Shown piece by piece: positions 2,804 to 7,086 of a DNA stretch of 64,000 bases. Under the pieces are notes generated by a model, which saw nothing but the letters and a program-made list of their open reading frames with translations, was not told the DNA's origin and searched no databases. Numbering within the stretch: position 1 is the first letter of the stretch; every line of letters starts with the position of its first letter. Origin of the DNA: Streptantibioticus silvisoli (GTDB taxonomy: Bacteria > Actinomycetota > Actinomycetes > Streptomycetales > Streptomycetaceae); NCBI RefSeq assembly GCF_027947535.2, contig NZ_JAAGKO020000002.1:62001-126000 (forward strand), given 5' to 3'. The translations under genes and the position numbers were made by a program.

Positions 2804-4069
2804 ATGCACGGCGGCACCGGAGAAGCGGGGGACCCGACGGAGCCGTTGCAGAACCGGGTGGAGACCCCGGCCTATCTCTACGATCTGGCCGCCGTGCGCG
2901 GCGCGTACGGGCAACTGCGTGGTTGTCTTCCGGAATCCTCCGGGCTGCTCTTCTCCCTGAAGGCCAATCCGCACCCGGCGGTACTGCGGCAACTGGCCGC
3001 GCTCGGCTGCCGGGCCGAGGTCAGTTCGCCCGGTGAGATGGAATCCGCCGTGGCGGCCGGATTCCGCGCCGACGGCATTCTCTACACCGGTCCGGGTAAA
3101 CGCGACCGCGACGTCGTGCGGGCCCTGGAAGCCGGTGTCCGGCAGTTTTCCGTCGACTCCCCTTACGCGCTGGACCAGTTGGACCGGCTGGGCCGCGCCG
3201 CGGCGACGGAGGTCACCGCGCTGCTGCGGGTCAACCCGCCCGTCCCGCCGGTGGGCGCCGGGCTCGCCATGACCGGCGGGCCCTCGCAGTTCGGCGCCGA
3301 CCTGTCGTGGGTCGAGGAGGAGCCGCAGTTCTTCAAGAGCCGTCGCCACGCGCGGGTGGCCGGGATCCACCTCTACATGGGCAGCAACCTCACCAGCGAG
3401 GAGACGCTGCTCGCCACCTTCCGGTACGCGCTGGAGGTGGTCCGCCAGGTCGAGGCGGCGCTGGACGTGCGGCTGCCGGTGGTGGACCTCGGCGGCGGCT
3501 TCGGCGCGCCCTACGCCGTCGAGGGCGCCCTGCCACGGTTCACGACGCTGCGCGGGCGGCTGGAGGAGCTGCTCGCCGCGGAGCTGCCCGGGTACGGGGC
3601 GGGAGAGCGGCAGGTGGTGTTCGAGTCCGGCCGCTACCTGACGGCCGGCTGCGGACGGCTGCTGACCCGGGTGCTGGACGTGAAGCGCTCGCACGGCCGC
3701 CGCATCGTCGTGCTGGACGCCGGGGTCAACGACCTGGGCGGCATGTCGGGCCTGCGCAAGGAGCACCGGGTCGACCCGCAGCTGCTCCCCGGCCCCACGC
3801 CGCACCGGCCGGCCGGGCAGGAGCCGTCCGGCGCGACGATCGTCGCCGGCCCGCTGTGCCACCCGCTCGACGTGTGGACCCGGGACGGCGCCCTGCCCGG
3901 CGCGGCGGTCGGCGACCTGGTCACCGTGCCCAACGTCGGCGCCTACGGGCTGCACTCGGCGCTGGCGCTCTTCCACTGCCACGCCATGCCGCTGGAAGTG
4001 GTGGTCGACGGCGAGCGGGAGGTCGAGCGCGGCCGGGCCTTCCTGGGCCGCGAACGGATCACCCCGTGA
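2804..4069 (+). CDS. PLP-dependent fold-type III decarboxylase (Orn/DAP/Arg decarboxylase 2 family)
   Basis: The 421-residue protein has every landmark of alanine-racemase-fold decarboxylases. The PLP lysine lies in FSLKANPHP (about K53), a glycine loop in VDLGGGFGAPY, ESGRYL near the middle, and the C-terminal CHPLDVW and NVGAYG motifs that supply the partner active site across the dimer. Relatives include diaminopimelate decarboxylase and BtrK, which decarboxylates glutamyl-ACP. The sequence YDLAAVR...SSPGEMESAVAAGF looks closer to the secondary-metabolism branch than to LysA, but this is my judgement. The ATG at 2804 is chosen for the GGGG run upstream; ATG 2771 is an alternative. It is the first gene of a coupled operon, and its stop overlaps the next GTG. 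The substrate is unknown and may be carrier-bound. Confidence 0.85.
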   Translation: MHGGTGEAGDPTEPLQNRVETPAYLYDLAAVRGAYGQLRGCLPESSGLLFSLKANPHPAVLRQLAALGCRAEVSSPGEMESAVAAGFRADGILYTGPGKRDRDVVRALEAGVRQFSVDSPYALDQLDRLGRAAATEVTALLRVNPPVPPVGAGLAMTGGPSQFGADLSWVEEEPQFFKSRRHARVAGIHLYMGSNLTSEETLLATFRYALEVVRQVEAALDVRLPVVDLGGGFGAPYAVEGALPRFTTLRGRLEELLAAELPGYGAGERQVVFESGRYLTAGCGRLLTRVLDVKRSHGRRIVVLDAGVNDLGGMSGLRKEHRVDPQLLPGPTPHRPAGQEPSGATIVAGPLCHPLDVWTRDGALPGAAVGDLVTVPNVGAYGLHSALALFHCHAMPLEVVVDGEREVERGRAFLGRERITP

Positions 4070-5151
4070 TCACCCGGGCCGCCGACCACCACCTCGTGCG
4101 GCCCGACCCGGCGGCCGAGGCCCCGGCCGTGGTCGAGGTGGCGGCCGGCGGCCCGTTCGTGGTCGTCATGCGGGACGATACCGCGCTCTGCGTGCGGGAG
4201 TTCGGCCACCGCCTGGGGATCCGCGGCACGGCGGCGGCGTCCGGGCTCGCGGAGGCGTACCACGGCTTCCAGCACGACACGAGGGACGCCCTGCGGGCCG
4301 TGGCGCGGTACCCCGGCGGGCTGGTCTTCCACGTCGTCGACCCGCTGTGCCTGGAGGAGGCCGTCCGCCGCCGGGCCGGGGACGGGCCGCTGATCAGCCT
4401 CGACCCACTGGTCGAGCGGGGGGTGGCGCCCCTGCGGGTCTCCCGCGGCTTCCTGCTCGGCGGGCGCGAGGCCATCGGCCTGGTGCCGCGCCCCGGTGCC
4501 GCCCCGGTGGCCGAGCAGATCGCGGCGCTGCCCCGGGACCCGGCCGGGGCGGGCTGCACCCTCGTCGAGGACGACATCTGCACCGGCGAGACCGTCGCCG
4601 CCGTTGTCCGCCTGCTCGGGGCGGCGGGCCGCCGGGTACACCGGGTCGTCCCGGGCGTCCGGCTGGACGCGGCGGCGTGCCCCGCCGTGCCGGGCGCCGT
4701 CCTCGACCCGGTCCTGGAGTACCGCACCACCGGCGGCGCGCCGGGCGCGCGGGCGGTGGAGCTGGCCGATCCGCGCAACTTCCTGCTGGGGCTGTCCGGG
4801 CTGGTGGTCCGGCTCCCGGACGGGACGTGGGGCCGGGCCCCGTACTGGCTGCCCTTCGTGCGGACCTCGGCGCGCGCCGGCGTCCCCGCGGACCGCGACG
4901 AGGAGTTCGCCCTGCGCGTGCTGGGGGCCAACGTGCGGTTCTTCGAGCGGGCCGAGCGGCTGGCCGGCCGCCCGGTGCTGGTCGGTGACCTGCACCCCGC
5001 GGTCCGCCGGCTGCTGGAGTCCCTGCGGCTGGCGGACGCCGGCCGCCCGGTCCGCCCGCTGATCGGCGACCTCGCGTCGGGGCTCGGCGCCTGGACCGAG
5101 CGGATCGCGGCGCACGCCACCGGCACGCTGACGGCGTCGGCGGTCCGGTGA
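4066..5151 (+). CDS. Phosphoribosyltransferase-like protein of unknown substrate
   Basis: The 361-residue protein starts at a GTG overlapping the decarboxylase stop. Residues 164-177 read CTLVEDDICTGETV, which matches the PRPP-binding loop of type I phosphoribosyltransferases (compare VxVEDVxTTGxS). The N-terminal half (residues 20-140) is not assignable to a base-specific subfamily, and the C-terminal third contains LADPRNFLLGLSGLVVRLPD and a long tail. The protein is well over the size of a simple PRTase (about 200 residues), so it probably has an added domain. By motif it would transfer ribose-5-phosphate from PRPP, or bind PRPP. Its coupling to a decarboxylase and a HAD protein suggests a nucleotide-like intermediate. 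This is inferred from one motif plus context. Confidence 0.6.
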   Translation: MITRAADHHLVRPDPAAEAPAVVEVAAGGPFVVVMRDDTALCVREFGHRLGIRGTAAASGLAEAYHGFQHDTRDALRAVARYPGGLVFHVVDPLCLEEAVRRRAGDGPLISLDPLVERGVAPLRVSRGFLLGGREAIGLVPRPGAAPVAEQIAALPRDPAGAGCTLVEDDICTGETVAAVVRLLGAAGRRVHRVVPGVRLDAAACPAVPGAVLDPVLEYRTTGGAPGARAVELADPRNFLLGLSGLVVRLPDGTWGRAPYWLPFVRTSARAGVPADRDEEFALRVLGANVRFFERAERLAGRPVLVGDLHPAVRRLLESLRLADAGRPVRPLIGDLASGLGAWTERIAAHATGTLTASAVR

Positions 5152-5984: not shown

Positions 5985-5997
5985 AGGAGGGGAACGG

Positions 5998-7086
5998 ATG
6001 CGACGGGTCCGAGTGGGCGTGGTGGGCTGCGGGATGATCGCGCAGCTGGTGCACCTGCCGCACCTCACCGCGCTGCACGAGCGGTTCGAGGTGGCGGCGG
6101 TCTGCGACCGGGAGGAGGACCTGGCGCGCACGGTGGCCGGGCGGTTCGGGGTGCCGCGGACGTACCCCGGGGTCGAGGAGATGCTGGCGGGGACGCCGGA
6201 CCTGGACGCCGTGGTGGTCCTGACCCTGGACCACGTGGCCGCGGTGCTGGCCGCCCTGGAGCGGGGCAAGCACGTGTTCACCGAGAAGCCCCTCGGCTAC
6301 ACGCTGGCCGAGATCGAGCAGGTCGTCGCCGCCTCCGAGCGGACCGGGGCCTCGGTCATGGTCGGGTACATGAAGCGGTACGACAGCGGGGTGCGCCGGG
6401 GGCTGGAGGAGATCGCCCGGATCACCCGGCCCGTCATGGCGCGGGTCCACCTCGTGGTGGGCCCGCGGTACGGCAACTGGATCATCCCGGAGCTGGCCGA
6501 CGTCACGCGCTCCCCGGCCGCCGCCGACCCGGGGCCGGACCCGCGGCGCGCCCGGGTCGTCGAGGAGTTCGGGGCCGCGCCGCAGCGGATCCTGGAGGTC
6601 TACATGGACATGTTCGGGGTCTGGAGCCACGACGTGAACCTCTACCGGGCCGCCTTCCCGGCCGAGCCGGTCTCCGTCAAGGCGCACTGCTCGCCGGACG
6701 GGACGGCGCTGACCGCGACGCTCCAGTACGCCGACGGGTTCCAGTGCGTCTTCCAGGGCGCGTCCACCGGGGTGCACCGCTTCGAGGAGAGCCTGACCGT
6801 CTGGGGCGAGGACCGCACGGTGACGGTGGACGTCACCAACCCGTTCCTGCCGAACGCCCCCTCCACCGTGCGGATCTGGCGCGACGAGCCGGCCACCGGG
6901 ACGGACGCGCGGGGCGCGGCCCGCGAGGAGGTCGTCACCGGGTCCTACGAGGAGGCGTTCAGGGCGCAGCTGGTGCACTTCCACGAGTGCGTCACGACAC
7001 CGGGGGCCCGGCCTCTGACGGACGCGCGGGAGAGCCTGCTCGACACCCGTCTGATGATCGGCATGGTGCGGGCGGCGGCGGACTGA
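5998..7086 (+). CDS. Gfo/Idh/MocA-family NAD(P)-dependent oxidoreductase
   Basis: The 362-residue protein begins [20 protein letters not shown], a Rossmann GxGxxx nucleotide-binding loop. The family EKP signature follows (FTEKPLGYT), and the C-terminal alpha/beta domain includes a WSHDVNLYR segment resembling the GxHxxD active-site region. Family members oxidise or reduce hydroxyl or keto groups of sugars, inositols and related polyols. The ATG at 5998 follows an excellent AAGGAGGGG. It is the last gene of the four-gene operon, so a redox step on a sugar- or cyclitol-like intermediate fits the set. The substrate is not visible. Confidence 0.85.

Follow-up and report, generated by a model that had tools for sequence, protein, structure and literature searches.

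What do four tightly coupled genes of Streptantibioticus silvisoli make together? The genes lie in a stretch of 64,000 nucleotides (positions 62,001 to 126,000 of contig NZ_JAAGKO020000002.1, forward strand), hereafter the window, and encode a pyridoxal phosphate (PLP) decarboxylase, a protein resembling phosphoribosyltransferases (PRTases), a HAD protein and a Gfo/Idh/MocA oxidoreductase. An earlier note on this DNA proposed that the enzymes decarboxylate an amino acid, join it to ribose-5-phosphate from phosphoribosyl pyrophosphate (PRPP), dephosphorylate the adduct and then oxidize or reduce it, and guessed at a small nucleoside-like product. Taken as a whole, that interpretation is partly supported by our results. 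We find that the genes form a conserved, rare five-gene biosynthetic cassette, the fifth member being an acyltransferase, and we see roughly an even chance that the metabolite made by this accessory cassette is O-acylated, ribosylated and amino-acid-derived (nucleoside-like).

Conservation and distribution of the cassette

The decarboxylase, PRTase-like, HAD and Gfo/Idh/MocA (Gfo) genes stand in identical order in five genomes, namely the window's own, Streptomyces sp. CB03234, S. aureocirculatus and the genomes G136 and G239, and the proteins of the other copies are 49–74% identical to those of the window. In a sixth genome, G401, the assembly apparently breaks within the set: the decarboxylase and PRTase-like genes share contig C741, the Gfo gene lies at the edge of C54, an acyltransferase gene lies at the edge of C366, and the HAD gene was not seen. 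The earlier note had staked its reading on the four genes being conserved together elsewhere; they are, and because the order is the same in five genomes the set is beyond chance.

Coupling between the genes in the window is as first described, with both GTGA stop/start overlaps, a gap of 13 bases between the HAD stop and the Gfo start, and a ribosome-binding site all present in the sequence (Table 1). Every one of the five complete copies has a 4-base overlap between the PRTase-like and HAD genes. Between the decarboxylase and PRTase-like genes the overlap is 4 bases in the window, CB03234 and G136 and one base in G239, and S. aureocirculatus has a gap of 3 bases; HAD and Gfo lie 7 bases apart in CB03234, 10 in G136 and 49 in G239, and in S. 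aureocirculatus they overlap by 4. An accidental grouping of unrelated accessory genes would fit the rarity of the set (strong matches in 3 of 394 genomes), but it is already refuted by the same order and coupling in five diverged copies and by the occurrence of strong HAD and PRTase-like matches in the same genomes, and we give it practically no weight.

Relatives of the PRTase-like protein (P0002) are 55% identical in CB03234 (L003), 51% in S. aureocirculatus (L004), 59% in G136 and 50% in G239, and another is present in G401. A profile of this protein gave strong matches in 3 of 394 genomes of the family, together with one weak match in G185, a NadE-type relative that we excluded from the cassette count. 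Three of 392 genomes from the genus of G239 matched strongly and one weakly; the corresponding numbers for the class were one strong match in 394 genomes and seven weak ones, and two of 391 genomes of the order matched at 1e-10. Strong matches to the HAD profile fell in the same three of 394 family genomes, apparently from the same draw. These rates are lower bounds, because the genome draws overlap and scoring was confined to five or six candidates per genome; the window's genus is represented by the window's own genome. Phage records gave no match. An open-access literature search returned nothing on this gene set, and the statement that no named pathway contains it is based on that search alone. 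Of the weak matches to the PRTase-like profile in the genus and class draws, two were dropped after reading by eye, one in an amidophosphoribosyltransferase-like gene (G692) and one in a ComF-like gene (G926).

The four genes originally described are borne out, but that set was incomplete, as it overlooked both the acyltransferase and a second locus on contig C53 of the same genome. The acyltransferase gene ends 166 bases upstream of the decarboxylase gene. Its product passes the cut-off of the wax ester synthase/diacylglycerol acyltransferase (WS/DGAT) family, carries the HHxxxDG motif as HHALTDG, and is the sole PF03007 match found in the window's genome. Five of the six cassette genomes (window, CB03234, S. 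aureocirculatus, G136 and G401) encode a WS/DGAT of the cassette type. It adjoins the set in three of them, upstream in the window and CB03234 and downstream in S. aureocirculatus, where it overlaps the Gfo gene by 4 bases and where an MFS gene, the four cassette genes and the WS/DGAT gene all overlap or almost touch. The window, CB03234, G136 and G401 copies are 50–68% identical to one another and the S. aureocirculatus copy is 42–47% identical to them; a second WS/DGAT of CB03234 is 34% identical, and the best 12 plasmid WS/DGATs listed are less than 38% identical.

A decarboxylase from a carrier-using lineage

Pfam supports the assignment of the first gene to the PLP decarboxylases (Orn_Arg_deC_N, 2.8e-34, and Orn_DAP_Arg_deC), and the closest solved protein is BtrK of butirosin biosynthesis (3.1e-46 in the PDB). 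The cassette enzyme belongs to the same alanine-racemase-fold branch of PLP decarboxylases as BtrK and VinO (vicenistatin), and shares the motifs ESGR and GPLCxP..D with BtrK. In a midpoint-rooted tree, in which BtrK and VinO were not among the rows, the six cassette decarboxylases form one clade (100/99) that groups with three carrier-type plasmid relatives (100/97), and these together nest within a larger carrier-type group (100/99). Besides the cassette copy, the tree used eight of the 11 matches from the window's own genome; a C42 fragment and L044, with its single TGA, were left out. Among the plasmid relatives (30 listed of 267 records) we read 10 neighbourhoods, nine annotated and one, L034, unannotated. 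An adenylating enzyme is adjacent in all nine annotated cases and a carrier protein is listed in seven; in L034 both were found by tblastn. The decarboxylase sits in the tree within a group whose genes stand next to those for adenylating enzymes and, in most cases, carrier proteins, and this ancestry supports the suggestion in the earlier note that the substrate is possibly carrier-bound. The substrate of VinO must sit on the carrier VinL (PMC11284099).

The kinship with BtrK raises another possibility, aminoglycoside-like O-ribosylation, in which the PRTase and phosphatase would put ribose on an existing sugar or aminocyclitol and the BtrK-like enzyme would act in the same pathway. We take BtrL and BtrP to perform such a ribose attachment (PRTase plus phosphatase) in butirosin, and the cassette likewise pairs a probable PRTase with a likely phosphatase and has BtrK as the closest solved relative of its decarboxylase. 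However, no aminocyclitol-synthesis family was found among the neighbours scanned, which were not all of the neighbours, and the ligase and carrier pair that serves BtrK is missing from the cassette itself. We regard O-ribosylation as very doubtful.

A divergent phosphoribosyltransferase-like protein

P0002 has no Pfam-A or NCBIfam family at 1e-3. The only Pfam family to match up to E 10 is Pribosyltran, below threshold (E 0.047, residues 154–189), and searching the PDB with the single sequence returned no match at E 10. The Pribosyltran match covers a PRPP-loop-like motif, TLVEDDICTGET, which has the hydrophobic residues, two acidic residues and TG.T of such loops (S. aureocirculatus has Ala in place of the Gly). 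An AlphaFold2 model built with five orthologues (predicted local distance difference test score 72.6, predicted template modelling score 0.75) gave a best Foldseek match of E 0.027, to an entry titled '1144', followed by orotate PRTase at 0.029. When the Foldseek list was re-scored with VIA-align, Z reached 8.7 over residues 10–229, a value near the 8 that the aligner warns can be common; 47 of the 50 rows shown were titled PRTase, UMP synthase, PRPP synthetase or PurR, and the other three had uninformative titles. We take PurR to have the PRTase fold. The protein's profile, searched against the PDB, matched amidophosphoribosyltransferase (0.017) and PRPP synthetase (0.048), both at the loop; these E-values are weak because two designed proteins (0.033 and 0.082) score likewise among the eight matches up to E 1.

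The fold of this protein was the other point on which the earlier note had made its reading depend, and the outcome is moderately favourable: a PRTase-like core is predicted. P0002 is thus probably a divergent PRTase. Its predicted alpha/beta core and its loop, VEDDICTGET, resemble those of type I PRTases (APRT, OPRT and amidophosphoribosyltransferase), but unlike them it lacks an above-threshold Pfam match and has an extra, mostly helical C-terminal region with RAPYxLPFV. Ter-associated operons, which we take to hold a PRTase and a HAD gene in one operon as the cassette does, offered a possible kinship that we rejected, since only Pribosyltran matched even at E 10 and neither PRTase_2 nor TRSP did; no Ter genes were found among the cassette neighbours scanned.

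Distant relatives include proteins in which a PRTase-like part is fused to an NMNAT-like domain (Streptomyces NBC_00158 and Variovorax plasmids). By tblastn these are 29–32% identical over 80–84% of P0002, with which they share RDD, SLD, RAPYxxPFV and the acidic-TG loop; unlike P0002, they are joined to a nucleotidylyltransferase-like domain and stand in an NAD-like setting beside NadE and a 2-oxoglutarate (2OG) oxygenase. The fused domain is CTP_transf_like. The set of NadE-like, 2OG-Fe(II) oxygenase and fusion genes lies at 9394–12897 of L001 and 7393–10834 of L002, in Streptomyces and Variovorax replicons, the fusion being recognized by Pfam in L001 and by eye in L002. From position 4987 onward, L053 has a NadE-like gene and a P0002-like match. 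This gene set possibly makes an NAD analogue.

The HAD protein and the oxidoreductase

The HAD protein matches PF00702 weakly (22.1 bits, below the cut-off at 26.4). Its AlphaFold2 model (the same two scores being 82.1 and 0.82) falls by Foldseek among HAD phosphatases of the Cof, sucrose-phosphatase and trehalose-phosphatase kind (best 1.8e-12), with a class IIB fold. It resembles class IIB sugar and nucleotide phosphatases in fold, in its Lys and in an acidic motif IV, but differs from them in motif I. The usual Asp is found in one further HAD from each of G136 (DLDDT) and G239 (DIDGT). The cassette HAD likely acts as a phosphatase, although this is not assured. The fourth gene is a Gfo/Idh/MocA oxidoreductase, as the earlier note had it (GFO_IDH_MocA, 3.4e-23); its Rossmann domain scores above the Pfam cut-off, EKP and WSHDxN are present in six of six copies, and its closest solved proteins are DgpA and inositol dehydrogenases.

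A second locus and a probably split pathway

In G136, genes for an adenylation-thiolation protein (A-T), a P450 and a second PRTase-like protein (PRT2) come directly after the four cassette genes on the same strand, with gaps of 4, 72 and 30 bases. The window's genome has counterparts at C53 88992–96284 (L073 and L074), which encodes, in order, an MFS protein, MbtH-A-T, a thioesterase, P450-PRT2 and an HD nucleotidase-like protein. Between C53 and G136 the identity is 64% for A-T, 80% for the P450 and 69% for PRT2, and the C53 HD protein is 72% identical to that of G401. The P450 and PRT2 of C53 are one open frame of 698 codons, with PRT2 at C53:94742–95527; its Pribosyltran match is below the cut-off, and a profile comparison between PRT2 and the P0002 family gave a probability of 0.2%, showing no relation. 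PRT2 occurs in three of the six cassette genomes (G136, G401 and the window's own). Because the A-T, P450 and PRT2-like parts of C53 match the three genes directly after the G136 cassette, the pathway is probably split, with the cassette as one half and the C53 locus as the other.

The C53 locus has the architecture of a nikkomycin-type module for carrier-bound hydroxylation, with MbtH fused before A-T and adjacent P450 and thioesterase genes. NikP1 has MbtH fused before its A domain (PMC6668435), and carrier-loaded His is the substrate of NikQ (PMC10099666). Unlike the NikP1/NikQ module, C53 has its P450 fused to a PRTase-like part, and among the loci read G136 alone has such a module next to the ribosylation cassette.

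Proposed pathway and the evidence against it

Joint conservation, gene coupling and families are directly supported; the reactions, the order of steps and the product are a proposal. The products of the MbtH-A-T, P450 and thioesterase genes of C53 would activate an amino acid and hydroxylate it on a carrier. P0002, to judge from its fold and loop, may then move 5-phosphoribose from PRPP to a nitrogen of what would be an amino-acid-derived acceptor, and the HAD protein, whose fold is suitable but whose DxN motif leaves doubt, would take off the 5-phosphate. The PLP enzyme may decarboxylate an amino acid that is carrier-bound, as its ancestry suggests, or ribose-bound; the Gfo/Idh/MocA enzyme would oxidize or reduce the sugar; and the WS/DGAT, in keeping with its family, would esterify a hydroxyl with a fatty acyl-CoA. 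The nucleoside-like metabolite guessed at in the earlier note is partly supported and would be the best reading; the order given there (decarboxylation, ribosylation, dephosphorylation, oxidation) is not established, and the HAD lacks the second Asp of DxD.

Several observations weigh against this proposal. Motif I of the HAD is DVNGT (DxN rather than DxD) in all five copies, and no Foldseek match of the P0002 model reaches E 0.001. The WS/DGAT gene stands beside the set in only three of six genomes; in G136 about 6.8 kb separate the two, in G401 it is found on a different contig, and G239 has no cassette-type copy. Only the A-T, P450 and PRT2 of the C53 genes match the cassette operon of G136, whose A-T has no MbtH domain; nothing in that stretch of G136 closely matches the MFS protein or the thioesterase. 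The A-T/P450 pair was seen in two of the six cassette genomes (the window's and G136), the other whole genomes (CB03234, S. aureocirculatus, G239 and G401) not having been searched. PRT2 is absent from three of the six, and its link to the cassette is not exclusive, because it is present in two plasmid records, NBC_01384 and BHT-5-2, that hold no P0002 relative.

The strongest of the competing explanations concerns the carrier. In the LC(T/H)P stretch, all six cassette decarboxylases have His (GPLCHP, or GRLCHP in one), whereas the eight of eight relatives printed have Thr (GPLCTP), as does BtrK; two diaminopimelate decarboxylases compared have Glu. We take this site, directly after the conserved Cys, to lie in the active site and touch the substrate. 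With His in place of Thr, dependence on a carrier may therefore be lost. In addition, neither adenylation nor carrier genes turned up near the window, CB03234 or S. aureocirculatus copies, three of the five loci examined over 20 kb or more, when called genes were scanned for motifs and five queries were run by tblastn. The decarboxylase could then use a small free or ribosyl-linked amino acid, so that the cassette alone suffices and C53 serves another pathway; there is a precedent in MccE, which acts on a nucleotide-linked aminocarboxypropyl group (PMC7857480). Against such a route stand the A-T gene of G136, which begins four bases after the cassette and is followed by the P450 gene, both with close copies on C53, as well as a carrier motif in a 2,529-amino-acid protein of G239 that lies about 7 kb beyond the set and has no adenylation match. 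We consider the carrier-free route unlikely.

The neighbours of the cassette in several genomes fit nucleotide chemistry, which speaks for the proposed product, but they also suggest a further alternative. G136 has a FolE-like (GTP cyclohydrolase I-like) protein, a weakly UPRT-like protein and a NUDIX protein; G239 has ThyA-like, ThiD-like, nucleoside-deoxyribosyltransferase-like (below cut-off), amidohydrolase and APH proteins; G401 has a nucleoside hydrolase, GTP cyclohydrolase II and an FGE-like protein; and S. aureocirculatus has two radical SAM proteins and an HD domain. That differing nucleotide-type genes adjoin the cassette in G136, G239 and G401 would suit a tailoring module that decorates bases or nucleosides from separate clusters (pteridine-, azapteridine- or pyrimidine-type) and makes no core of its own. 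However, among the genes scanned or read, no such neighbours were noted by the CB03234 and window cassettes, where the WS/DGAT accompanies the set, and this absence, like the lack of a comparison of the trend with a random-locus control, also counts against the proposed pathway. A purely tailoring role seems to us quite unlikely.

If the split pathway is correct, the product would represent an uncharacterized class of nucleoside-like natural product, and because its genes would be divided between two loci it would be hard to recognize as one cluster. The broadest version, in which a portable module of five genes includes a PRTase family outside Pfam and makes a new acylated nucleoside-like class, its amino-acid-derived part coming from an unlinked NikP1/NikQ-like locus or, in other hosts, from base-making genes, is one that we put forward only tentatively, as the less probable outcome. 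The proposal offers a testable function for a PRTase-like protein without a Pfam-A or NCBIfam match and for BtrK-like decarboxylases with a changed conserved site. CB03234 carries the cassette and is reported to be an engineered tiancimycin producer, so a knockout should be practical.

Layout of the locus and other observations

Table 1. Positions of the cassette genes, their junctions and the adjoining remnant in the window
Feature	Position	Strand	Basis
WS/DGAT-type O-acyltransferase, fifth cassette member	1261..2637 (start GTG 1261 or a few codons later)	+	TIGR02946, 320.6 bits (cut-off 309.95)
Fold-type III PLP decarboxylase, BtrK/VinO branch	2804..4069	+	Pfam, PDB match, tree, motifs SLKAN, ESGR, GPLCHPLD, GAY
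GTGA stop/start overlap, decarboxylase to PRTase-like	4066..4069	+	Sequence
Divergent type I PRTase-like protein (P0002), probable, with C-terminal RAPYxLPFV region	4066..5151	+	Predicted fold, PRPP loop, weak profile matches
PRPP-loop-like motif TLVEDDICTGET, residues 165–176	4558..4593	+	D169, D170, T173, T176 invariant in five orthologues
GTGA stop/start overlap, PRTase-like to HAD	5148..5151	+	Sequence
HAD class IIB (Cof/sugar-phosphatase-like) protein, motif I DVNGT	5148..5984	+	AlphaFold2, Foldseek, motif
Ribosome-binding site AAGGAGG of the Gfo gene (fourth gene)	5984..5990	+	Sequence
Gfo/Idh/MocA NAD(P)-dependent oxidoreductase	5998..7086	+	PF01408, 3.4e-23
Polyketide synthase (PKS) ketoreductase (KR) remnant running into UDP-galactopyranose mutase pieces	7107..8581	+	Pfam KR, SpnB_Rossmann (below cut-off), GLF

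Two further gene groups were seen during the survey of neighbours. In G136 (L010 12393–13798), a cupin gene and a split thiamine pyrophosphate decarboxylase pair, sulfopyruvate/phosphonopyruvate decarboxylase-like, are divergent from the cassette. L063 (2053–9574) and L076 (2305–14937) each encode WD40, GTP cyclohydrolase II, FGE-like, glycosyltransferase-like, MFS, PRT2 and HD proteins, and L076 also a RibD-like protein, a nucleoside hydrolase and a permease; we take this cluster to resemble azapteridine clusters of the toxoflavin/fervenulin type.

The mobile-element remains reported next to the operon were sought in two small upstream open reading frames, which gave no Pfam match at 0.01; the remaining window was not scanned for them. 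The decayed PKS fragment is present as described, downstream of the Gfo gene, and is a neighbour outside the cassette. The UDP-galactopyranose mutase pieces into which its KR part runs sit in two frames.

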